Below are positions 87 through 22,118 of a stretch of DNA of 22,118 nt, in pieces. The position numbers and the translations under genes were made by a program. The stretch is from a virus. The first letter of the stretch is position 1. Each line of letters begins with the position of its first letter. The stretch spans positions 1-22,118 of the IMG/VR virus record IMGVR_UViG_3300048928_000428, one strand, 5' to 3'. The notes below the pieces were generated by a model. The model ran no database searches. It saw only the letters and a list, made by a program, of their open reading frames with translations, and was not told where the DNA came from.

Positions 87-112
87 CATTTGGCTGGCTG
101 CCTGTCCAAATG
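87..112 (+). promoter_or_regulatory. Late-promoter dyad 1 (Ogr-type site) upstream of J
   Basis: CATTTGG (87-93), 12 bases, CCAAATG (106-112): perfect 7-bp arms. The same dyad with the same 12-base spacing recurs at 7799-7824 ahead of V, and the two 12-base spacers share eight consecutive identical positions or more (GCTGCC and GT are common). P2 Ogr sites are known to be TGT-N12-ACA centred near -55; here TGG-N12-CCA gives the same TG-N14-CA geometry. The centre lies about 57 bp before the preferred J start. An Ogr-family gene is present at 21973. Binding is inferred. An RNA hairpin role is the main alternative. Confidence 0.6.
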
Positions 113-156
113 CCGGGGCATGGCGCTCGCCCGCGTGCTGACCAGAGATGGCCGGC

Positions 157-1062
157 ATGGCCGATGTCACCTTCACCGCTGTCGATCTGTCGCGCCTGCC
201 CTCGCCCGACATCGTCGAGACGCTCGACTTCGAGACGATCTACGCCGACGCGGTCGCCCACTTCAAAGCCGAGCTGGCGGCACGCGGCATCACTTACGAG
301 GAACGCGATAGCGATCCCGTCGCCAAGCTGCTGCAGACCTTCGCCTACTTCGCCCAGCTCCTGCGCCAGCGCGTGAACGACGCAACGCGCGCCGTCATGC
401 CAGCCTACGCAGTCGGCGCCGACCTCGACAACATCGCCGCGCTGTTCGGCATCACGCGTCTGGTCATCACCCCGGCGGACCCGGAGCTTGGCACGCCTGC
501 CGTGATGGAGAGCGATACCGAATTCCGGCGCCGCATGGTACTAGCGCCCGAAGGCTACTCGGTCGCCGGCCCGATCGGCGCCTACGTCTTCCACGCCCTC
601 ACCTCGCACCCCGACGTGCTCGACGCCAGCGCCGAGAGCCCGACGCCGGGCCACGTCGTGGTGACGATCCTCTCGCGCAGCGGCAACGGCGCTGCGCCGC
701 ATTCTGTGGTCGACGCCGCAGCCACATACCTCAATGCCGACACGCGCCGCCCGCTGACCGACTACGTAACGGTGCAGCCGGCGCAGATCATCACCTATTC
801 CGTCGACTACGACCTGCGCACCTTCACCGGCCCCGATGCCGGCGTGGTGCGCGCCGCATCGCTGGCAAGGGTCAACGCCTATGTCGAGGAGAGCCACCGC
901 CTCGGCCGCGACGTCACCCGCTCGGCGCTGTTCGCCGCCGCGCACGTCGATGGCGTCCAGAACATCGTCCTCAACGCGCCGGCCGAGGACATCCCGGTAA
1001 GCCGCGCCCAGGCGCCTTACTGCATCGGCGTGACTGCGCGAACGCTGGGCACCGGCGAATGA
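157..1062 (+). CDS. J: Baseplate assembly protein J (P2 gpJ-like)
   Basis: This is a structural protein of the contractile-tail baseplate. In P2, gpJ forms the baseplate wedge together with W and I. The product is about 301 residues, the usual length for gpJ, and has the typical N-terminus (FTAVDLSRLPSP, then LDFETIYAD) and the central FRRRMVLAPEGYSVAGP segment seen in J-family wedge proteins. Two in-frame ATGs exist, at 148 and 157. I prefer 157 because the family usually begins MAD and because its spacing from the upstream dyad matches that of gene V. The stop overlaps the I start by ATGA, which indicates translational coupling. It is the first gene of the J-I-fibre operon. In P2 itself, V and W precede J; here they lie 7 kb downstream. 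Confidence 0.93.
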   Translation: MADVTFTAVDLSRLPSPDIVETLDFETIYADAVAHFKAELAARGITYEERDSDPVAKLLQTFAYFAQLLRQRVNDATRAVMPAYAVGADLDNIAALFGITRLVITPADPELGTPAVMESDTEFRRRMVLAPEGYSVAGPIGAYVFHALTSHPDVLDASAESPTPGHVVVTILSRSGNGAAPHSVVDAAATYLNADTRRPLTDYVTVQPAQIITYSVDYDLRTFTGPDAGVVRAASLARVNAYVEESHRLGRDVTRSALFAAAHVDGVQNIVLNAPAEDIPVSRAQAPYCIGVTARTLGTGE

Positions 1063-1700: not shown

Positions 1701-3280
1701 CCGACATCGTCCTGCAACTCACCGATGCCGGCCTTGCCGCGCTGCAGTCTGCCGGCGGCAGCGCCAACACCGTAATCGCGGAGCTTGGCTTCACCGCCAC
1801 ACCGTTCGATCCCGCGCCCACGCTCACCGCCCTGCCCGGCGAGTTCAAGCGCGTGGGCACCGCCGCCGGTGTCGCGCCGGCGCCGAACGTCGCTCATCTC
1901 ACCGCCTACGATACCTCCGCCGACATCTGGGAAGCATCTGGCCTCGGCCTCTATCTCGACGACGGCACCTTGTTCGCGGCGTACAGCGCGAGTGAGATCG
2001 TGCTGACCAAGGCCAGCTCCGCCTTCGCGCTGATCGCGGTCGACGTCGTCTTCAACGCCGACATCGCCGGCAGCATCACCTTCGGCAATCCGATCTTCGC
2101 CAATCCCCCCGCAACGACCGAGACCGCCGGGGCGGTCGAGCTGGCGACCGAGGCGGAGGCGCTGCTCGGCGAGGACGATGCCCGCGCGCTCACGCCGGCT
2201 ACCGGCAAACAGGCCGTCACCACCTGGCTCTTCCGCGAAGACATCATGCTCGGCGCGACCGACGTGATGACGCCAAACCTAGGGTCGACCGGCGGCATGC
2301 GCATCCGCGGCAATGCCGTGTCGGGCAAGGCGTACCTGCAGTTCACGAGTGACGATCTTGCCTCGGAGTGGGGCTTCGCCGTCGTCACGGCGACCGGCAA
2401 GTTCGACTGGCACGGTGCAGGCGGACTCTGCGCGGGCGGCAGCACCGCTTGGGTCGGCAACGAATTCACCGGTCCGATCGGCGTCGGCGGCGATCTCACG
2501 GTACGCGGCGGTGCCGACATCCTTCTCGAATCGCAGTTCCCAGGCTATCCGGTCAGCCTGATCTACAACGATCGCGGCACCCTCGCCTTCAACTCCAACG
2601 GTTGGGAGCGAGGCCTCTTCGACGAAGGCGGGGCGCTTCACCTCAAGGGGGCGCGCCAGTTCGCTAACCAGTCGACGATTGCCGGCAATGGTAACCTCAG
2701 GGTCTGGGCCGGCCTGCCAGGCGGGGTCGCCTACACCGCGATCGACACGAACGACTACACGCCCCTCCAGATCCTGCGGCAGATCAACGGCTCGATCACG
2801 ACGGTGGGTGCGATCACCAGCACCGACTTTGTCACCACCTACGGCACGTCTTGCGACTATCGCCTGAAGGAAGACCTGCGCGAGGTGACAGGTGCGCTGG
2901 ACATCATCATGCGCGCCAAGGTCTGGGACTATCGCTGGATCGGCACCGATCGGCGCAGCACCAACTTCATCGCGCACGAACTGGCCGAGATCGTCCCGGA
3001 CGCGGTGACGGGCCGGAAGGATGCAACCCGCGAACTCGAGATCCAGATCGATCCCGGCAGGCGACCGGTTCTCGGCGAGGATGGCACCGTCCTCGATGCC
3101 GGCGCCGATCCCGTCACCCGCGTCGAGACCGTCATGGATATCCAGACTGTCGATCCCGGCAAGATGGTGCCGTTCCTCACCGTGGCGCTTCAGGAGTTGG
3201 CGCGCATCGTGCTATCCCAGGGTGAGCAGCTCGCCGCCCTGCAAGCGGCTTCTCGCCGCAAGCGAGGGAGCGCCGCCTGA
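1697..3280 (+). CDS. H: Tail fibre protein with C-terminal S74-type chaperone domain
   Basis: Receptor-binding fibre at the position of P2 gene H; 527 residues from a GTG that overlaps the I stop. Residues 1-140 resemble the N-terminal attachment domain of tail-collar fibres. A short collagen-like fibre repeat segment (TAGAVELATEAEALLGEDD) follows near residues 140-175. The middle is poorly conserved and probably forms the trimeric shaft and receptor-binding part. From about residue 380 comes an intramolecular chaperone of the peptidase S74 type: CDYRLKED at 386-393, then VWDYRWIG and FIAHELAEIVPDAVTG. S74 domains fold the trimer and usually cleave themselves at a Ser-x4-Lys pair. Here Cys386 occupies the Ser position, with Ser385 just before it and Lys391 conserved. 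Cleavage is therefore uncertain. Confidence 0.85.
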   Translation: MTDIVLQLTDAGLAALQSAGGSANTVIAELGFTATPFDPAPTLTALPGEFKRVGTAAGVAPAPNVAHLTAYDTSADIWEASGLGLYLDDGTLFAAYSASEIVLTKASSAFALIAVDVVFNADIAGSITFGNPIFANPPATTETAGAVELATEAEALLGEDDARALTPATGKQAVTTWLFREDIMLGATDVMTPNLGSTGGMRIRGNAVSGKAYLQFTSDDLASEWGFAVVTATGKFDWHGAGGLCAGGSTAWVGNEFTGPIGVGGDLTVRGGADILLESQFPGYPVSLIYNDRGTLAFNSNGWERGLFDEGGALHLKGARQFANQSTIAGNGNLRVWAGLPGGVAYTAIDTNDYTPLQILRQINGSITTVGAITSTDFVTTYGTSCDYRLKEDLREVTGALDIIMRAKVWDYRWIGTDRRSTNFIAHELAEIVPDAVTGRKDATRELEIQIDPGRRPVLGEDGTVLDAGADPVTRVETVMDIQTVDPGKMVPFLTVALQELARIVLSQGEQLAALQAASRRKRGSAA

Positions 3281-4053
3281 TGGCCAAGGCAGACGCTCTC
3301 CCCGTGGCAGACGCCATTGCCGGCGCCGAGCTGCTGATCGTCGTGCAGGATGGCGAAGTGCGCAACGCCAGCGTGCTCGACATCCTGGCGGCTCCCGGCG
3401 CGGCCGAGGTCATCATGATCGGCGGTCGCAGCCTCGCCGAGATCATCTCTTCGATCGAGTACCCAGGCATGATGATTACGAGCCTGACCGTTGCACCCTC
3501 GCAGGCCGAGATCGGCGCGACCGTCACCGCAAACCTTGCCGTGGTCCTCACCCAAGACCCGACCGGCCAGACGGTGAACGGCACGCCTGTGCCCAATCCC
3601 GCGACGGCTCGCGCCTTCGCTGTCCCGAATGTGTCGGCGACGACGCAGTTCCAGTGGACGGTGACCGACGCCGCCGCGCCCGGCGGGCCGGCGACGGACA
3701 AAAGGGCGGTGACGATCACCTTCCTCCACAAGGGTCACGCCGGCTTCGTCGACAAGTCCGATGCGGCGACCCTGTCAGCGGCCGACGTGAACGGCATGGC
3801 CGCGAGCTGGTTTGCCAGCGGCGTTGCCCGCACGCTCAACCTGGTGGCGGGCGCGGACGGGTACCTCTGGTACTCGCAGCCCGCCAGCCTGCCCGATCCC
3901 TCGACCTTCAAGGCCAACGGCCTGCCGGTCGCCCCCGTGAAGACCACCCGGGATCACGCCAACGCCTTTGGCGTCGTTGCATCCTACAACCACTTCCGCC
4001 TCGGCGCCCGCCTCGCGGCCGGTGCCTCGGTCACTCTCGAGGTTCTCGCATGA
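3280..4053 (+). CDS. Tail-associated protein of unknown function
   Basis: A 257-residue product with no domain I can name. Residues 1-55 (LPVADAI, ELLIVVQDG, VRNASVLDILA) resemble the short N-terminal segment that begins many fibre-linked proteins of alphaproteobacterial phages. The rest is rich in Ala, Thr, Val and Gly and looks like beta-sandwich structure (VTANLAVVL, TTQFQWTVTDAA, VTITFLHKG, ASVTLEVLA at the end). The start overlaps the fibre stop by one base and its stop overlaps the next ATG (ATGA), so it belongs to the same coupled operon. Its place between the fibre and the esterase suggests a fibre-tip, adaptor or decoration role. This is inferred only from context and composition. 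Confidence 0.7.
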   Translation: MAKADALPVADAIAGAELLIVVQDGEVRNASVLDILAAPGAAEVIMIGGRSLAEIISSIEYPGMMITSLTVAPSQAEIGATVTANLAVVLTQDPTGQTVNGTPVPNPATARAFAVPNVSATTQFQWTVTDAAAPGGPATDKRAVTITFLHKGHAGFVDKSDAATLSAADVNGMAASWFASGVARTLNLVAGADGYLWYSQPASLPDPSTFKANGLPVAPVKTTRDHANAFGVVASYNHFRLGARLAAGASVTLEVLA

Positions 4054-5885
4054 CGATCGGTGCCGTCGACAAGATCAAGCCTCTGGGCAACTTTCCCGTC
4101 ATCGACGCCGCCGACGTGGAAACGGACGCTCTGCGCCGGTTTGTCACCGATGCTGAGCGCAATGCCCTCGCCGATTTGCAGGAGACGATCGAACCGCGAG
4201 GGGAGGATGATCGGCTTCGGCTGAAGGACGACAAGGGGTGCATCTTCCTGGAAGTCACTCCACAGGAACTGCGGCATGTCCTCATAGACCTGCTTGCCGC
4301 GCGCAGTGACGCGCTGGCGGACACGATGGCGCCCGCTTCTGCCTCTGATCGGTTCCGCCTCAAGGATCCTAACGACCTCATCTTTCTCGATGTCACGCCC
4401 AGCACAATCCGCCACGTCGACTTCGACGCGGTCAAGGCGATCGCGAACGCGCTCTCGGGCGTCCTCAAGCCACTCCAGCTCGATGGCCGCCTGCGGCTCA
4501 TGGACAGCATGCGGCGTAACTTCTTCGAGGTGACACCGAGCCGGCTCAAGCACGTCGAGATCGATGCCCTGAAAGCCGCGGACAAGACTGCGGCCGATGC
4601 GATCGCCAGCACCAGGACGAAGGTCACGCGACTGCAGCGCTCCGGCGCGTCGAGCCCGGCCCAAGCGGCCTACATGCTGCGCGCGCAGCTCGCGCACCTG
4701 GTCCTCTACGGCCAGTCGCTCTCGGTCGGCGTCAACGGCCGCCCCGCCATTTCGACCGCCGCCAACTTGCCTTGGGCCAAGATGTTCGAAGGCGGCTTGC
4801 GCTCCCGTGATGCCCAGGCGACCAGCGGCGCGTACAACGCGAACTTCTACGCATCGCTGGTCGGGCTCAAGGAAGCCGATCAAGCCAACAACGACGGCTA
4901 CGGCGAAACGGGCGCTTACGGCACCGCCGAGATGATCGCGCAGCTTCTGCTCGCGGAAGACGGCATCGATATCACCGCAACCGGGCAGCAGTTCCTGTTC
5001 TCGGCGCCTGGTGAGGGTTCGCAGCCGATCTCGGCGCTACAATCCGGCGGAACCTATTGGCCCCGTGTGCAGGCCGACGTGACCAACGGTCAGGCCCGCA
5101 GCTCGGCGCTCGTTGTGCCGTACCTGGTTCATGGCCTCACCTGGCGTCAGGGCGAGCGCGACACGGCACTCGGCACGGCACCCGCCGCCTACAAGGCGAC
5201 GCTCAAGGATCAGGTTCTTGGTGCCCTGCGGACGTACGCAGCCAGCGTCACCGGCGTCGATCAACCGATCCCTTGCGTCGTCTACCAGATGGCCAGCCAC
5301 CGTCGTTACAACGCCGACCCGTTCATCGCGATGGCCCTCGTCGAACTGGCCGAGAGCGAGGACAACTTCGCCCTCTCGGCGCCGCTGTACTTCATGCCGC
5401 ACTCCGACACGGCGCATCTCACCCCGGCGAGCTACCGCCGCCTTGGCGCCTACGAGGGGATCGCCTGGAAGCGGTGGCTGTTCGACGGTGTAAAGCCGCG
5501 CTGGCTGCGCCCGCTTGCGCCGACATGGTTGAACGGCGCGGTGATCGTGCCCTTCGACGTGCCCGAGGGGCCGCTGGTGTTTGACACGACCAGCGTCATG
5601 GACCCGGGCAACTATGGCTTCTCGCTTGTCGACAACACGGGGGCGGCCGTGGCGATCACCAGTGTCACCCTGGTCGGCACCGATCGAGTGCTCATCAAAC
5701 ACTCAGGCGGCGTTCTGCCGAGCGGGGCCGAGCTTCGCTACGCCTGGGGAACAGGGCTGGGCGACGTGGCCGGCCCGACCAACGGTCCGCGCGGCAACCT
5801 GCGCGACAGCCAGGGCAACAGCATCACGTTCAAGGGTCTCCGGATGGACAACTGGAGCCCGATCTTCCGCAAGATCAAAGGATAA
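4050..5885 (+). CDS. Tail-associated SGNH/SASA-type carbohydrate esterase with three N-terminal repeats
   Basis: A 611-residue product starting at the ATG that overlaps the preceding stop (ATGA). Residues 54-175 hold three copies of a motif about 45 residues apart (residues 54-82, 99-128, 145-175) of the form RLRLKD-x5-IFLEVTP-x3-LRHV-x-ID. Residues 210-470 form an SGNH-hydrolase-like domain: GQS at 221-223 (Ser223 the likely nucleophile), WRQGERD at 365-371, and D453-x2-H456 in a SDTAHL context, the usual Asp-x-x-His end of the triad. These blocks resemble the sialate O-acetylesterase (SASA) family. The C-terminal 120 residues look like a beta domain. As part of a fibre module, it probably deacetylates host capsule or LPS during adsorption; the substrate is unknown. 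The repeats may be the tail-docking part. Confidence 0.8.
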   Translation: MTIGAVDKIKPLGNFPVIDAADVETDALRRFVTDAERNALADLQETIEPRGEDDRLRLKDDKGCIFLEVTPQELRHVLIDLLAARSDALADTMAPASASDRFRLKDPNDLIFLDVTPSTIRHVDFDAVKAIANALSGVLKPLQLDGRLRLMDSMRRNFFEVTPSRLKHVEIDALKAADKTAADAIASTRTKVTRLQRSGASSPAQAAYMLRAQLAHLVLYGQSLSVGVNGRPAISTAANLPWAKMFEGGLRSRDAQATSGAYNANFYASLVGLKEADQANNDGYGETGAYGTAEMIAQLLLAEDGIDITATGQQFLFSAPGEGSQPISALQSGGTYWPRVQADVTNGQARSSALVVPYLVHGLTWRQGERDTALGTAPAAYKATLKDQVLGALRTYAASVTGVDQPIPCVVYQMASHRRYNADPFIAMALVELAESEDNFALSAPLYFMPHSDTAHLTPASYRRLGAYEGIAWKRWLFDGVKPRWLRPLAPTWLNGAVIVPFDVPEGPLVFDTTSVMDPGNYGFSLVDNTGAAVAITSVTLVGTDRVLIKHSGGVLPSGAELRYAWGTGLGDVAGPTNGPRGNLRDSQGNSITFKGLRMDNWSPIFRKIKG

Positions 5886-6661: not shown

Positions 6662-7000
6662 GCGTCACTGTGACGGCGGGCTCTTCTCGCCGTCGCTTAC
6701 CCCCTGTAGGAACGGGGAGTGTGCGTAGGATATTCAGCCGCTTCAACATTGAAGCTATCAGAACAACATACACGGTCGGTTCGACTGCTCGTTCTGCGAA
6801 TGAAGTTCTCATCAGCAGCTGCCGGCTTCCCGACAAGGACAGCTAACGGACTCTGCTATCATGATTCGAAGATGCAACACCATTTGGGCCACGACTCTTT
6901 TGATCACCTGAGGTTACTCTTTCGCTGATCGGCGAATCGCCAAAGCCCGGCGCAGCAAATCGTCGAGACATCGTTGATCTCATTTATCCCAAGGATAGGC
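6662..7000. other. Intergenic stretch before the HEPN gene
   Basis: No convincing gene. It holds the hairpin at 6672-6694, then a second short CCCC/GGGG hairpin around 6700-6718. The rest is clearly more A/T-rich than the tail genes and leads into the HEPN gene. TATCAT near 6857 is a possible -10 box, but no paired -35 was found. Confidence 0.5.
6672..6694 (+). terminator. Hairpin after the fibre operon, possible terminator
   Basis: GACGGCG (6672-6678) and CGCCGTC (6688-6694) are perfect 7-bp arms with a 9-base loop, starting 11 bases after the last fibre-module stop. The T run behind it is poor (GCTTACC), so rho-independent termination would be weak. Position and stem strength are the only evidence. 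Confidence 0.4.
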
Positions 7001-7582
7001 ATGTCATCGCTTAAGCGCATTCCAGAAGCGAGTTTTTTCATCTTTCTGTCGGAGGCCGACAAAGACTATCTCCTAGCGAGGCATATCAATTTTCTCGGAA
7101 GCTCATTTGCTTCACGTGCTGGCTTTTTCGGCCAAGCGGCAGTTGAAAAGTTCATGAAGGCTCTGATGGTTCAGCGCGAGGGCTCCTACCTTGCGCATCA
7201 CTCACTCGTGGGGCTTGCGAAAGAATGCCTGCCATTCAGCGAATATTTTGCGCTCGCTGAAACCCTAGAGGGCTTGGAAACCTTCGAGCATTTTGAACAA
7301 ATTGGGCGATACGGCGCGGCGGCCAAGAAGGACAAGAACCGAGTAGACACACCCGAATTGCAAATCCGGGGGGCGTACGTTTGGGCGGATACCTACATTC
7401 ATGTCCTCGACGCGTTAGTGGCGGAAATCAGAGGTATGATTGTAATAGAGCCTACTTATGTCGATGCGCTACGAAAGATTATAGATGGAGGGGAAGGTCT
7501 AAGTTTGGTCGACCTGTGGCGTGGTACTGAGCAGATTCGTGACGTACTTTTGCGAGATAACTACTCGTTCGGGCAGGTATGA
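7001..7582 (+). CDS. HEPN-domain protein (phage cargo gene)
   Basis: A 193-residue product. The ATG at 7001 is preferred over an upstream TTG (6974) because AAGGA stands five bases before it. The sequence fits the HEPN fold: AGFFGQAAVEKFMKALMV (helix with the typical QAAEKxxKALL pattern) near residues 37-54, then LAHHSLVGLAKEC near 63-75 (the conserved His before a Leu-rich helix), and IRGAYVWADTYIHVLDALVAEI near 125-145. HEPN proteins are often RNases or RNA-binding partners in toxin-antitoxin and anti-phage systems. Arg and His lie seven positions apart in REGSYLAH, but whether this is the catalytic R-x4-6-H motif is unclear. No nucleotidyltransferase partner is adjacent. Base composition differs from the tail genes on both sides, so it is likely a transferred cargo gene. 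An abortive-infection or exclusion role is inference. Confidence 0.7.
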   Translation: MSSLKRIPEASFFIFLSEADKDYLLARHINFLGSSFASRAGFFGQAAVEKFMKALMVQREGSYLAHHSLVGLAKECLPFSEYFALAETLEGLETFEHFEQIGRYGAAAKKDKNRVDTPELQIRGAYVWADTYIHVLDALVAEIRGMIVIEPTYVDALRKIIDGGEGLSLVDLWRGTEQIRDVLLRDNYSFGQV

Positions 7583-7794: not shown

Positions 7795-7828
7795 CCCGCA
7801 TTTGGATAGCTGCCCGTCCAAATGCGGG
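7795..7828 (+). promoter_or_regulatory. Late-promoter dyad 2 (Ogr-type site) upstream of V
   Basis: CCCGCATTTGGA (7795-7806) and its exact complement TCCAAATGCGGG (7817-7828) form a perfect 12-bp inverted repeat with a 10-base loop. Its core, CATTTGG-N12-CCAAATG, is identical to the site ahead of J. The centre is about 55 bp before the V start. The following bases also partly match those after dyad 1 (GGGGC, GCATG, GGCGC, then GCCG-CATGGC around the start codon), which argues for a shared promoter rather than a shared hairpin alone. Activation by the Ogr-like protein is inferred from geometry. Confidence 0.65.
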
Positions 7829-7866
7829 GCCGCGCATGCTGGCGCCTCTCGCGTCATGGTCGCCGC

Positions 7867-8400
7867 ATGGCGAAGACCGACCCCGAACAGATCACCGGCG
7901 AAGTGCTCCAACTCGGCACGATCGCATCGGTCGACTATGGCGAGGGCACTTGCACCGTCGAGATCGGCGATCTGGTCACCGGCGACCTGCACTGGCTCGC
8001 CCCCCGCGCCGGCGGCGTCCGCATCTGGTCGCCGCCGAGCGTCGACGAACAGTGCTTGGTCGCATGTCCCGAAGGTGACCTCGCCAACGGCCTGGTCCTG
8101 CCCGGCATCTGGTCCGACGCCAACCCGCCGCCCTCGACCGACCCCGATGTCGTGCACCTCGAGTTCCCCGATGGCGCGATCATCGCCTACAACCATGGCA
8201 CCCACGCGCTCACGCTGAGCCTGCCCGCCGGCGGCACCCTGGCGGTGGACGCGCCCGGCGGCACTGCCTGGAAGGGCGACATCGCCGTGACTGGAAAACT
8301 CACCGCGTCCGATGACGTGCTCGCCGGCGGCATCAGCCTCAAGGATCATAAGCATTCCGGCGTCCAGGACGGCGCTGCGCAGACCGGAAAGCCGGTCTGA
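7867..8400 (+). CDS. V: Baseplate spike protein V (P2 gpV-like)
   Basis: Central spike of the baseplate that pierces the outer membrane. The 177-residue product begins MAKTDPEQITGEVLQLGTIASVD, a gpV-type OB-fold start. It has GWSPP-like central turns (RIWSPPSVDEQCLV, residues 52-65), a beta-helix-like stretch with glycines (residues 95-150) and the apex motif HKH at 161-163. In P2 and Mu spikes an HxH motif binds iron at the tip. A little shorter than P2 V (about 211). The ATG at 7867 is chosen because family members begin there; no clear Shine-Dalgarno precedes it. The stop overlaps the W start (TGATG). First gene of the second late operon. Confidence 0.92.
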   Translation: MAKTDPEQITGEVLQLGTIASVDYGEGTCTVEIGDLVTGDLHWLAPRAGGVRIWSPPSVDEQCLVACPEGDLANGLVLPGIWSDANPPPSTDPDVVHLEFPDGAIIAYNHGTHALTLSLPAGGTLAVDAPGGTAWKGDIAVTGKLTASDDVLAGGISLKDHKHSGVQDGAAQTGKPV

Positions 8401-9995: not shown

Positions 9996-10508
9996 ATGGG
10001 AATGCCCCGCACCCTCAAGGACATGATGCTGTTCAACGAAGGCTTCGCCTACCTCGGCGATGCCAAGAAGGTCACCCTGCCCACTCTCTCGCGCAAGATG
10101 GAGGGCTATCGCGGCGCCGGCATGAGCGGCGAGGTGCAGATAGACATGGGCATGGAGGGCATCGAGCTGTCGTTCACGACCGGAGGCCCAATGCGCGACG
10201 TGCTGCGCCAGTGGGGCGAGCCTCGGGTTGACGGCATCTATGTCCGCTTCGTTGGCAACTACCAGGCCGACGATACTGCCGCGATCGACCATATCGAAGT
10301 GATCGCCCGCGGGCGCCACAAAGAGATCGAAATGGGCGACCAGGAGACTGGCGAACCGTCCGAGTTCAAGTCGACCATGCCGCTGGCCTACTACAAGCTG
10401 GTCTGGAACGGTCGCACTGAGATCGAAATCGACTTCCTCAACATGGTTGAGATCGTCGACGGCGTCGATCGCCTCGCCGAACGGCGCGCACTTCTCGGCC
10501 GTTTCTGA
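9996..10508 (+). CDS. FII: Tail tube protein FII
   Basis: Major subunit of the inner tail tube. 170 residues, the same as in P2-like phages, starting MGMPRTLKDMMLFNEGFAYLGDAKKVTLP, with the conserved KMEGYRGAGMSGEVQIDMGME block near residues 35-55 and the C-terminal EIDFLNMVEIVDGVDRLAERRALLG. A second ATG two codons later is possible. AGGAG lies 8 bases before the first ATG. It stands 54 bp after the sheath gene with no obvious promoter in the gap, so it is in the same operon. Confidence 0.95.
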   Translation: MGMPRTLKDMMLFNEGFAYLGDAKKVTLPTLSRKMEGYRGAGMSGEVQIDMGMEGIELSFTTGGPMRDVLRQWGEPRVDGIYVRFVGNYQADDTAAIDHIEVIARGRHKEIEMGDQETGEPSEFKSTMPLAYYKLVWNGRTEIEIDFLNMVEIVDGVDRLAERRALLGRF

Positions 10509-10873: not shown

Positions 10874-11005
10874 ATGGCGGATATCGCGGTGGTATTCCAC
10901 TGGCAGCCCGCGGCGATGGACGGGATGGACCTCTCCGAACTCATGGGCTGGCGCGCGCAGGCAGCGCGCCGCTCGCAGCCACCTGAGAAGCAGGGCAAAC
11001 GCTGA
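10874..11005 (+). CDS. E': E' frame of the tail chaperone, GpE family (expressed by -1 frameshift)
   Basis: 43 codons beginning MADIAVVFHW, with DGMDLSELMGWRAQA, the signature of the short P2 GpE-family protein that is usually annotated on its own. No Shine-Dalgarno precedes the ATG, and the frame is open upstream to the slippery site at 10820, so it is most likely made as the C-terminal 59 residues of the E+E' fusion (87 residues of E, 16 linker residues, then these 43). The stop overlaps the tape-measure start (TGATG). The E' part is expected to recruit tail tube or tape-measure partners during assembly. Confidence 0.87.
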   Translation: MADIAVVFHWQPAAMDGMDLSELMGWRAQAARRSQPPEKQGKR

Positions 11006-14945: not shown

Positions 14946-15701
14946 ATGGCCGAGAATTCACCAATCGAATGGACCGATGCGACTTGGAACCCTGTTGCGG
15001 GATGCAGTCTCGCGTCTGCTGGGTGCACCAACTGCTACGCCATGCGCATGGCTGCCAGGCTCGATGCTATGGGCGTCCCCAAGTACAAGGGGCTGACGCG
15101 CAAGAGTGGAGGCCGTGCGAAGTGGACAGGCACAGTCCGCTGCGATGAGAGTGCGCTAGCGGTGCCACACCGCTGGCGGCGGCCAAGGAAGGTCTTCGTC
15201 AACTCGATGTCGGACTTGTTCCACGCGGAAGTGCCGCTCGAGTTCATCCGAAAGGTATGGGACGTCATGGAGGCGACACCTCGGCACGACTACCAGCTGC
15301 TCACAAAGCGTCCGGATCGAATGCGGGAGGTACTCTCTACCGGAGGCTTCAAGGTGCTGCCGAACGCCTGGCTCGGCACGAGCGTCGAAGGTCCGGATGT
15401 GGTCGAGCGGATCGACGCTCTGCGCCAAACTCCAGCTGCCATTCGCTTCGTTTCGTTTGAACCGCTCATCGGCCGCATCGAACAAGTCGACCTCACTCAT
15501 ATCGCTTGGGCTATCGTGGGCGGCGAATCAGGTCCAGGCGCTCGCCCGATGGAAGAGACGTGGGTCTGGGATTTGAAACGTCTCTGCGATCGTGACGGCA
15601 CTGCGTTCTTCTTCAAGCAGTGGGGTGGCGTGAACAAGAAAGCTACCGGTAGGTCTCTTGGTGGAGAGACGTACGACGCGATGCCGGCCTGTATTTCTTA
15701 A
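14946..15701 (+). CDS. DUF5131 (phage Gp37/Gp68 family) three-Cys-motif protein
   Basis: A 251-residue product with the whole family pattern: IEWTDATWNP, then Cys20-x6-Cys27-x2-Cys30-Tyr-Ala, then KVFVNSMSDLFH, LLTKRPDRM, LGTSVE, RFVSFEPLIG and GGESGPGAR. The Cys triplet and the barrel-like order recall radical-SAM enzymes, but the reaction is not known to me. GGGGA stands 7 bases before the ATG. The family is known to travel with TcmP, and that partner is the next gene, in convergent orientation with a 59-bp overlap of the coding ends. It lies directly after the late genes, a classic cargo spot. No truncation seen. Confidence 0.88.
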   Translation: MAENSPIEWTDATWNPVAGCSLASAGCTNCYAMRMAARLDAMGVPKYKGLTRKSGGRAKWTGTVRCDESALAVPHRWRRPRKVFVNSMSDLFHAEVPLEFIRKVWDVMEATPRHDYQLLTKRPDRMREVLSTGGFKVLPNAWLGTSVEGPDVVERIDALRQTPAAIRFVSFEPLIGRIEQVDLTHIAWAIVGGESGPGARPMEETWVWDLKRLCDRDGTAFFFKQWGGVNKKATGRSLGGETYDAMPACIS

Positions 15702-16584
15702 CGACATGATCAACCCCACGCTTGATCAGATCGATCGCACCGCGATTGTTCGATAGGCAATACAGCTCAAAGTAGTCGTGGCCATTAATGATCAAAGGCA
15801 GCGGCGGCGAAACGTAGCAGAAGAGCTTGCCGAGACGCTTTCGCGCAAAAGCCGCGATGTCCTCTGGCGACGCATGTCGCCCTTTGCTCGAAGTGGCCGG
15901 ACCGCCAAACAGGTCAGCTTGTGCCGGCTTAGCACTGTAGAACTCGTCTTCCCAGTCGTCTCCGCCGAAGATGCGCGCTAGTGCCCTCCGCTTGCCGTCA
16001 TCGACGCCGGAGATGTCGTTTGCCAGTTGGTGGATGACTGCAGCGCGCGGAAACAGGTACCACACGTCTACGCGCTTGGTGTCAGCGAGCACCTGCAGCG
16101 TCTCCCAGTCTACACTCATGCCGTACGGATCGAGGAACACAACGCCGCGCTGCTTCCACGCGTCGCGTCCACCAGACCAAGGCGGTGACGCAAACAACGC
16201 GCGGAGCTCGCTGTTCGCCTCACCCCTGCGTACGACTATGTTTCGAGCGAATTCGGTCTTGAGCTGCTCGAGCTGGCGTGATCGCCCCAGCTGTTGCTCG
16301 GAAAACCAATAGTGCGCGAAGGGCGGATCGACCTTCAGCGCCTTGCGAGCGCTACCGTCGAGGATCAGTTGCACGTCCTCTAACGGCCGCCCCTCGAATA
16401 TGCCGCCTTGCCGAAGTTCCGCGTGGCGATCGCCAGTACCCGCGAACGCATCGATGTACCATCGTTCGAAGTCGCTATTCTTCAGGGCATTTTGATAGAA
16501 GCGAAGATACTCACTCAGGGCGCTGAGCTTGATTTCCGTCCAGACGCCTCCAAAACGGTGAGCTACTCGCGGTCGCTGCGCCAC
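15643..16584 (-). CDS. tcmP: Three-Cys-motif partner protein TcmP
   Basis: A 313-residue product from a GTG at 16584 with AGGAG six bases upstream. Family marks: WTEIKLSALSEYLRFYQNAL (residues 15-34), YIDAFAGTG at 43-51 (a Rossmann motif I as in SAM-dependent methyltransferases) and VFLDPYGMSVDW near residue 150 (a motif IV-like DPYG). It is known as the regular partner of DUF5131 proteins; the shared function is not established as far as I know. Its last 59 bp overlap the 3' end of the DUF5131 gene on the other strand. Upstream, 22 bp away, is a DUF6232 gene on the same strand, so the two may be one operon. Methyltransferase activity is inferred from motifs only. Confidence 0.85.
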   Translation of the reverse strand: MAQRPRVAHRFGGVWTEIKLSALSEYLRFYQNALKNSDFERWYIDAFAGTGDRHAELRQGGIFEGRPLEDVQLILDGSARKALKVDPPFAHYWFSEQQLGRSRQLEQLKTEFARNIVVRRGEANSELRALFASPPWSGGRDAWKQRGVVFLDPYGMSVDWETLQVLADTKRVDVWYLFPRAAVIHQLANDISGVDDGKRRALARIFGGDDWEDEFYSAKPAQADLFGGPATSSKGRHASPEDIAAFARKRLGKLFCYVSPPLPLIINGHDYFELYCLSNNRGAIDLIKRGVDHVVKKYRPASRRTSLHQETYR

Positions 16585-17452: not shown

Positions 17453-17715
17453 CAGTGCGCGTTAGCGGCGCATTTTTCTGGCCGCCAATCAAGTCAGTGC
17501 GAGACTGGCTATAATCCGGCGCCTAGCCGCCTTTTTCCACAGGCCATCCACAACGCCGTCCACCGCGCCGAGCCAGCGAAGGCAAAAAACCGTTTTCCTA
17601 CAGCCGCCTCATTCATCCATTACGGAACATATGAGGAACGCGGAAGATGATCGATCGAGCCTTTCCACAACGCGCTTGTCCCCCGGCTGCGAATTCGCCT
17701 GCCCCTCGTGCAGCG

Positions 17716-17883
17716 TCAGGTGTGCGACGATGGTGCGGATGCGGGACGATCTCTGGCGGGAACTGGAGGAGCTTCACCGGCTGCAGGCGATGCAGCCGAG
17801 CCTGGATCGAGCGCAAGAGGTCCGATCGATGCAAGGTCAGCTGGAAGCCGCCGAGCGAGAATGGCGGCGGCTTCGTCCTTCGA
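17716..17883 (-). pseudogene. Orphan 3' end of a phage repressor gene
   Basis: Read on minus, 55 codons ending in a stop match the C-terminal part of the resident repressor: SKDEAAAILARRLPADLASI here against SKDEAADILARRLPAGLASI there, continuing GPLALDPGSAA. Then it diverges into its own Pro/Ala-rich tail (ending PSSHT). Of five base differences over the 94-bp match, three are silent, so the copy diverged while still coding. No start, no HTH part. It is a remnant of a related repressor left behind by recombination. Confidence 0.75.
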
Positions 17884-20066: not shown

Positions 20067-20600
20067 TTAAGGTCTGACTTGAGCCTGCTGCGGGTCAAGG
20101 GGTGCTGGGCGAGCGTGGTCGGTTGAGACCAATGCGGCTGAGCCTGGATCGAGCGCGAGAGGTCCGATCGATGCAAGGCCAGCTGGAAGCCGCCGAGCGA
20201 GAATGTCGGCGGCTTCGTCCTTCGACGCACCTTCGGGAACAAGTACCAGGATGGAGCGGAACATATCGCGCAGCGCGGCTTCACTAGGGAGCGCTACCGG
20301 CATGCTGACGTGAATGATCTGTGGACGGGCAGCTTCTATTTCGCGCGCTTCAGGCTCGGCTTCCTCATCGGTAAGGCCTGCGAGCATCATCACTTCGGCG
20401 GGATCAACCTTGTGCTCCGCCAGCACCGCAGCGATCCGGCGGGTCAACTCTAGGGGCAGCGAACCCTTCTTGTATCGGGTCGATTCGTAATTGGCGTAGG
20501 TGCCGAACGGCATCGCCAGCGCCGCAGCCATCGCCCGGCCTGTAAGGCTCGGCTGCGCTTGCTGCCTCAGCTCTCGTAATCTGGCGCCTAGGTTCCTCAC
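20067..20600 (-). CDS. Phage repressor, XRE-type HTH (P2 C-like position)
   Basis: A 177-residue product. The GTG at 20600 is chosen: AAGG lies five bases upstream and the HTH domain begins right after, whereas any longer reading would run through the operators. Residues 5-75 form the HTH region (LGARLRELRQQAQ, TGRAMAAALAMPFGTYANYE, LTRRIAAVLAEHKVDPAEVMMLAGL). Residues 100-150 are a second domain (LPSEAALRDMFRSILVLVPEG, DILARRLPAGLASIG). There is no LexA/S24 Ser-Lys protease motif, so SOS self-cleavage is unlikely. The C-terminal 22 residues after the repeat boundary (ending QAQVRP) differ from the tail of the orphan copy at 17716. Divergent from the Cro/Cox-like gene across an 83-bp operator region. 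Confidence 0.82.
   Translation of the reverse strand: MRNLGARLRELRQQAQPSLTGRAMAAALAMPFGTYANYESTRYKKGSLPLELTRRIAAVLAEHKVDPAEVMMLAGLTDEEAEPEAREIEAARPQIIHVSMPVALPSEAALRDMFRSILVLVPEGASKDEAADILARRLPAGLASIGPLALDPGSAALVSTDHARPAPLDPQQAQVRP
20133..20226 (+). repeat. 94-bp direct repeat, copy B (inside repressor 3' end)
   Basis: Matches 17791-17884 with five mismatches and no gaps; covers roughly codons 125-156 of the repressor on minus. Confidence 0.9.
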
Positions 20601-21485: not shown

Positions 21486-21973
21486 CGAAGCCGCGCGAAC
21501 CCATGACCTTCTCCACCGCGATCAAGGTCGTCGCCGACCTGATCGGCATCGAGCAGGTGCGCAAGATCACCGGCGTGAGCGTGCGAGAGGCACGCTACTA
21601 CACCGAGAGCGACAAGAGCCCGATCCCCACGATCGAGAAGTGCTTCGCGCTCGACACGGCCTTTCTTCAGGCCGGCGGCGGCTATGCGCCGATCTTCGAA
21701 AGCTACGAGCGGCAAATCCAGGCGGCCTGTTCCGAACCCGTCGCGTGCCGCGTCGAGCTGCTGAACCATCTGGCCACCATCGTGCGCGAATGCGGCGATG
21801 CCTGGGCCCACGTCTTACAAGCGGCACAGTCCGGCGCCACCCCGGCGCAGATCTACCGCGCCATGGTCGAGATAGAGGAGGCGGACGTCCTGTTCCCGCG
21901 CTTGCTCGGTCTCCTGAAAGCACTTCTGCCCGGTAATGGGATCAGGGCCGAAGCCACGGGGGATCACAACTGA
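21482..21973 (+). CDS. Early regulatory protein, possibly CII-like
   Basis: A 163-residue product starting at an ATG that overlaps the previous stop (ATGA). Residues 8-65 (MTFSTAIKVVADLIG, EQVRKITGVSVREARYYTESDKSPIPTIEKCFALDTAFL) look like an HTH with a DNA-binding turn near VSVREARYYTESD, as in the P2-type CII/CP76 regulators. The C-terminal half is helical. Its place between the Cys-rich gene and the ogr-like gene fits a regulator of early or replication genes. I am not sure of the family; a plain HTH protein of another kind is possible. Confidence 0.5.
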   Translation: MTKPREPMTFSTAIKVVADLIGIEQVRKITGVSVREARYYTESDKSPIPTIEKCFALDTAFLQAGGGYAPIFESYERQIQAACSEPVACRVELLNHLATIVRECGDAWAHVLQAAQSGATPAQIYRAMVEIEEADVLFPRLLGLLKALLPGNGIRAEATGDHN

Positions 21974-22118
21974 TGTCGGGCCGTCCGAACCAGCTGCCAC
22001 ACGTTACCTGCCCGGCCTGCGGGGGCCGCGCATTCTGCCGCTCGAACGGGAAGAGCAGCCCGCTCTTCCGCGAGCTCTACTACCACTGCCGCAATCCCGA
22101 TGCGTGCGGGCACACTTT
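21973..22118 (+). CDS. ogr: Ogr/Delta-family late transcription activator (partial, cut by window end)
   Basis: 49 residues visible from an ATG overlapping the previous stop (TGATG). Zn-finger of the Ogr/Delta type: Cys13-x2-Cys16-x22-Cys39-x5-Cys45, followed by GHTF. P2 Ogr has the same C-x2-C-x22-C spacing and the same closing aromatic-rich segment (YYHCRN here). Ogr binds a dyad near -55 of the late promoters and recruits RNA polymerase. The natural targets here are the dyads at 87-112 and 7799-7824. The gene lies in the early operon rather than after D as in P2, so late activation would be tied directly to early expression. Confidence 0.85.
   Translation, partial: MSGRPNQLPHVTCPACGGRAFCRSNGKSSPLFRELYYHCRNPDACGHT

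Follow-up and report, generated by a model that had tools for sequence, protein, structure and literature searches.

Gene content of the window

The window, meaning the whole stretch of DNA that was analyzed, is a 22,118-base contig from a virus record and is probably a fragment. It encodes P2-type tail genes, assigned with PHROGs, in the two blocks J-I-H and V-W-FI-FII-E-T-U-D, in that order. The first block is headed by the gene for the baseplate protein J (148..1062, plus strand; the conserved start is probably at 157) and the second by the gene for the baseplate spike/assembly protein V (7867..8400, plus strand). This P2-type set and order of tail genes, with ogr after D, identifies the source as a P2-like phage (Peduoviridae). 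The contig ends before the P and O genes, and its own P/O site lies outside it. No match among plasmids was found by nucleotide search.

The gene encoding the Ogr/Delta zinc-finger activator (21973..22118, plus strand) is cut by the contig end. Its presence had been pointed out in a preliminary description of the window, and even the truncated product scores 36.2 bits against the Ogr_Delta family PF04606 (cut-off 26.3); the homologs in relatives score 42-55 bits. Full-length, near-identical copies are found at two related loci (L202 and L203). The Ogr protein of P2 has the cysteine spacing CX2CX22CX4C (PMC3931495). This exact spacing is absent from the window clade, where the finger is CX2CX22CX5C or, in one subgroup, CX2CX23CX5C. 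Because all four cysteines are kept and other sphingomonad homologs have CX4C, the CX5C finger is best seen as a variant of the Ogr_Delta family. An AlphaFold model of Ogr shows three strands at low confidence (pLDDT 64), and a Foldseek search with this model returned nothing meaningful. Sequence searches of the PDB found no Ogr relative of solved structure beyond a weak match to NrdR (E=0.039).

Two identical dyads ahead of the tail operons

An exact inverted repeat, CATTTGG-N12-CCAAATG, stands ahead of each tail block. One copy lies before J (87..112; CATTTGGCTGGCTGCCTGTCCAAATG) and is a predicted Ogr site near position -55 of the J promoter. The other lies before V (7799..7824; CATTTGGATAGCTGCCCGTCCAAATG), where the arms reach 10 bp (CCGCATTTGG/CCAAATGCGG). 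Both copies had been correctly placed in the preliminary description, which found them nowhere else; the 22,118 bases indeed hold no further exact TTTGG-N12-CCAAA, and dyad matches with two mismatches occur at chance level.

Could such a pair be a chance product of GC-rich sequence? Among 1000 dinucleotide shuffles of the window, two yielded an identical pair in which 7-bp arms enclose 12 bp. When any spacer of 6-20 bp was allowed, a repeated pair with 7-bp arms arose in 4% of shuffles, a frequency that lends the chance explanation some weight. Judged from the window by itself the pair is suggestive, and it is the comparison with relatives that decides whether the dyad is real. Dozens of relatives keep dyads at the same places and add a third site, and the dyad is nearly absent elsewhere in host genomes. 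A chance origin is refuted by this conservation, and the probability left to it is negligible.

Copies in relatives and host genomes

Searches of IMG/VR yielded 32 loci with J, 6 with V and 52 with Ogr. The dyad precedes J at a conserved position in most of 28 relatives and is likewise conserved before V. Near-complete related contigs carry, as a rule, three copies: before J, before V and between the divergent genes P (terminase) and O (scaffold), the last being a single site common to both genes. The presence of the dyad ahead of other late operons had been proposed as a check, and the copy between the terminase and scaffold genes of relatives answers it. The operator is located before all late operons, namely J and V in the window and P/O in relatives. 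A reversed-pattern control gave 1 match in 50 contigs.

A further match beyond the three copies is present in a few related contigs. In G022, a fourth dyad (39298-39323) lies about 1 kb past ogr, before a 50-aa ORF at the contig end, and possibly marks a further Ogr-controlled gene. Nearly all contigs large enough to hold ogr do carry an Ogr gene. The 39.6-kb contig G006 has three intact operators and no recognizable ogr; it may be a truncated or incomplete contig, or it may rely on the Ogr protein of another phage.

The named hosts of the relatives are Novosphingobium. A scan of genome contigs returned only four loci, and family-wide genome searches were therefore used. The 4.5 Mb of Novosphingobium sp. 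Rr 2-17 hold three exact dyads, every one of them inside the prophage. Two whole Novosphingobium genomes (G065 and G067) have three exact dyads each, all clustered in a prophage. Across 398 genomes of Sphingomonadaceae, three copies were found in two genomes, each of which has a prophage of this kind together with an Ogr gene, and one copy in each of four others, which is about the chance expectation. An Ogr gene above the cut-off is present in 37 of the 398. The dyad is nearly absent from host genomes outside these prophages.

Comparison with known late operators

In the P2 record (AF063097), one activator site (3057-3087) is common to pO and pP, with starts at 3127 and 3016. The pV site (10239-10266) is followed by a start at 10308, the first base of V, and a third activator site lies at 17555-17583. 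The distance from site center to start is 55-56 bp for pO, pP and pV. The Ogr site is usually quoted as TGT-N12-ACA (PMC3931495), and the dyad had been compared with that form in the preliminary description. As read from the sequence, the P2 sites are TGT-N12-CCA at pO/pP and pF and TGT-N11-ACA at pV, and both annotated B-protein sites of phage 186 (U32222) are TGT-N12-CCA. The proposed TG-N14-CA frame stands, whereas the strict ACA half does not. The core of both window sites, TGG-N12-CCA, falls within the pattern TG(T/G)-N12-(A/C)CA. Since TGG is already one half-site in P2 and 186, the variant is nearer to known sites than had been assumed. On this reading of the letters, TGG is a normal half-site of the Ogr family, and the window operator is its symmetric version, with two TGG in longer arms.

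P2 shares with the window group a single site serving divergent P and O, an ATRGC in the -35 region and the TG-N14-CA frame. Its dyad center lies 55-56 bp from the annotated transcription start, which for V is the start codon; the same positions are predicted for the window group. It differs in its asymmetric TGT-N12-CCA sites (TGT-N11-ACA at pV), as against TGG in both halves within CATTTGG arms, and in having J inside the V operon, whereas J opens its own operon in the window group. Phage 186 also has one B-protein site shared between divergent promoters, but only one of its half-sites is TGG, its host is enterobacterial and its finger is CX4C.

The late-promoter motif of the Ralstonia phages RSY1/RSA1, TGTTGT-N13-ACAACA (PMC5694545), lies 50-90 bp before late genes in phages that have an ogr homolog, as in the window group. 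It has TGT half-sites and a 13-bp spacer, compared with TGG and 12 in the window clade, and belongs to the same class as the TTGT-N13-ACAA sites of other sphingomonad prophages. The Stenotrophomonas phage Smp131 (PMC3931495) resembles the window in its tail gene order (J-I-H, then V to D), in ogr after D and in the proposal of Ogr-type late promoters. At least two of its published TGT-N12-ACA-like sites look doubtful: those at 4381-4398 and 10964-10981 lie within the annotated genes P (2789-4630) and J (from 10963), and are therefore probably not real operators.

Predicted promoter elements and probably leaderless transcripts

The preliminary description had placed the dyads about 55-57 bp ahead of the first start codon of each block. 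From the dyad center to the V start codon (7867) the distance is 55.5 bp, identical to that in P2, and to the J start it is 57.5 bp (start at 157) or 48.5 bp (in-frame ATG at 148). The suspicion that the -55 geometry of P2 had been mixed up with a start-codon distance was dropped, since transcription of V in P2 is annotated to begin at the start codon itself, which makes the two distances equal for this gene.

Aligned promoters suggest further elements downstream of the dyad. In the J promoter, a putative -35-region element, ATGGC (120..124, plus strand), matches the ATAGC/ATGGC found at a similar place in P2 pV, pF and pO. When the V promoters of relatives are aligned on the dyad center, two elements are conserved: CGCGaAAg, around +20 to +25, and CGCCATGGTC, around +41 to +50. 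By position, the corresponding elements of the V promoter in the window would be CGCGCA in the -35 region (7831..7836, plus strand) and a predicted -10 element, CATGGTC (7855..7861, plus strand), conserved in both the V and P promoters of relatives. The P promoters of relatives have conserved ggTGAT and GCATGGTC at positions as in the V promoters; in the O promoters, CTTGAG and CCTTT are conserved. Since the ATG within CATGGTC is not in the reading frame of V, what is conserved here is DNA. Taken as a -10 element, with A at -11 and T at -7, CATGGTC would make transcription begin at the V start codon, and the predicted transcription start is the A at 7867.

A Shine-Dalgarno match of at least 4 is found ahead of 4% of V, 0% of J and 0% of P genes, compared with a background of 23%; the figures for FI and FII are 100% and for O 67%. 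Since V, J and P lack Shine-Dalgarno sequences, their mRNAs are probably leaderless. These data also bear on the idea that the dyad works in RNA, as a hairpin in the 5' leader or an attenuator. Its arms are able to pair, over up to 13 bp in the CATTTGTAGAGG type. Yet the first genes lack a Shine-Dalgarno sequence and start at the expected transcription start, so the dyad would sit upstream of the RNA; it is not followed by a T-run; and its arm letters are nearly fixed across the sites of one phage while the spacer varies, so what is kept is a sequence and not pairing alone. A function in RNA is therefore highly improbable.

Operator alleles and covariation with the Ogr finger

Dimeric regulators in general bind symmetric palindromes, and the dyad might be the operator of another DNA-binding protein of phage or host, a repressor or second activator, to which Ogr is merely linked. 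Such a regulator would have to act at sites found only at late promoters, at the position of P2 Ogr sites, with one site shared by P and O as in P2 and 186 and with a core that matches known Ogr half-sites. It is made improbable by these features and by the divergence of the operator, which tracks the Ogr finger even after V, F and J are accounted for.

The operator arms are common to the late promoters of one phage and differ between phages. Most of the window clade has CATTTGG-N12 (allele A). The other alleles are CATTTCG-N12 (B; G003, G008, G015, G042), CATTTGT-N13 (C; G009, G061, G063) and CATCGGG or CAGCGGG-N12 (D; G033, G034, G194), and the operator of G076a is CATTGGG (TTGGG with N12). 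Among the remaining Ogr-bearing prophages of sphingomonads, the majority have TTGT-N13-ACAA before V and J, at a similar distance. The fingers differ accordingly. Canonical CX2CX22CX4C fingers, mostly with RTS or RSS, are paired with TGT, and CX2CX22CX5C fingers with FARS, FART or HSRA are paired with TGG. FAQT fingers are paired with TCG (TTTCG operators) and CPACAG fingers with CGGG (TCGGG operators). In the C group (TTTGT-N13), the Ogr finger is one residue longer. A rule of one extra finger residue per extra base pair fits this subgroup but is not general, since N13 is also found with canonical X22/X4 fingers.

Covariation was assessed on non-redundant phages, with operators hand-curated from de novo palindromes and with V, sheath (F) and J as the compared proteins. 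Operator distance correlated with Ogr finger distance after removal of V and sheath (partial Mantel r 0.48, p=0.0005, n=42) and after removal of V and J (r 0.56, p=0.0005, n=34); V and J themselves had no residual correlation with the operator. Within the CX5C clade the correlation with Ogr was weaker and of borderline significance (0.41-0.47, p 0.04-0.06), and sheath also had a residual of 0.32. Because the operators were hand-curated and the covariation comes from few independent switches, each probably single, it favors Ogr as the protein that reads the site, short of proof.

Proposed late regulation

The geometry, the co-occurrence with ogr, the absence from host chromosomes and the covariation with the finger all support the variant Ogr recognition sequence put forward in the preliminary description, with binding by Ogr as the expected activity. 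The dyad is very probably the Ogr-type late operator of P2-like phages from Novosphingobium and other sphingomonads. Its sequence is a previously undescribed variant, and one whose spelling shifts between phages together with the Ogr protein. In the proposed mechanism, the phage-encoded Ogr zinc-finger protein would bind two half-sites centered some 55 bp ahead of the transcription start and, by analogy with P2 and 186, bring RNA polymerase to a promoter whose -35 box is weak. In this way the operons of J, V, P and O would be switched on, with the single P/O palindrome acting in both directions. For V, J and P, transcription would begin on the start codon or beside it, an arrangement annotated for V in P2.

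With this reading, many uncharacterized P2-like prophages of sphingomonads would gain a defined late regulon. About 48 natural Ogr-operator pairs with at least five operator spellings are available, and they make the reading of bases by residues directly testable. Do the alleles form a natural code for the C4 finger? Tentatively, an Arg or Lys seven residues past the second cysteine may read the conserved central guanine of the half-site (TGT, TGG, GGG), its change to Gln going with the change of G to C (TCG), and the residue after the second cysteine and the finger length may be linked to the outer bases and the spacer. Late regulons might thereby be insulated from co-resident P2-like prophages. 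Such a code is less likely than not.

Accessory genes in the window

Several genes lie among those of the tail and ogr. A HEPN-domain protein (PF05168) is encoded at 6974-7582, inserted between the tail-fiber genes and the V operator, and is possibly a toxin or defense gene. Between D and ogr, a gene for a DUF5131 protein (14946-15701, plus strand) is convergent with a second gene (15643-16584, minus strand), the product of which matches the PADLOC candidate defense models PDC-M41B and PDC-M41A; the pair is a possible cargo defense system. Finally, near-identical 31-base inverted-repeat elements (17844-17874 and 20186-20216) flank a minus-strand ORF of 631 aa with MORN repeats.
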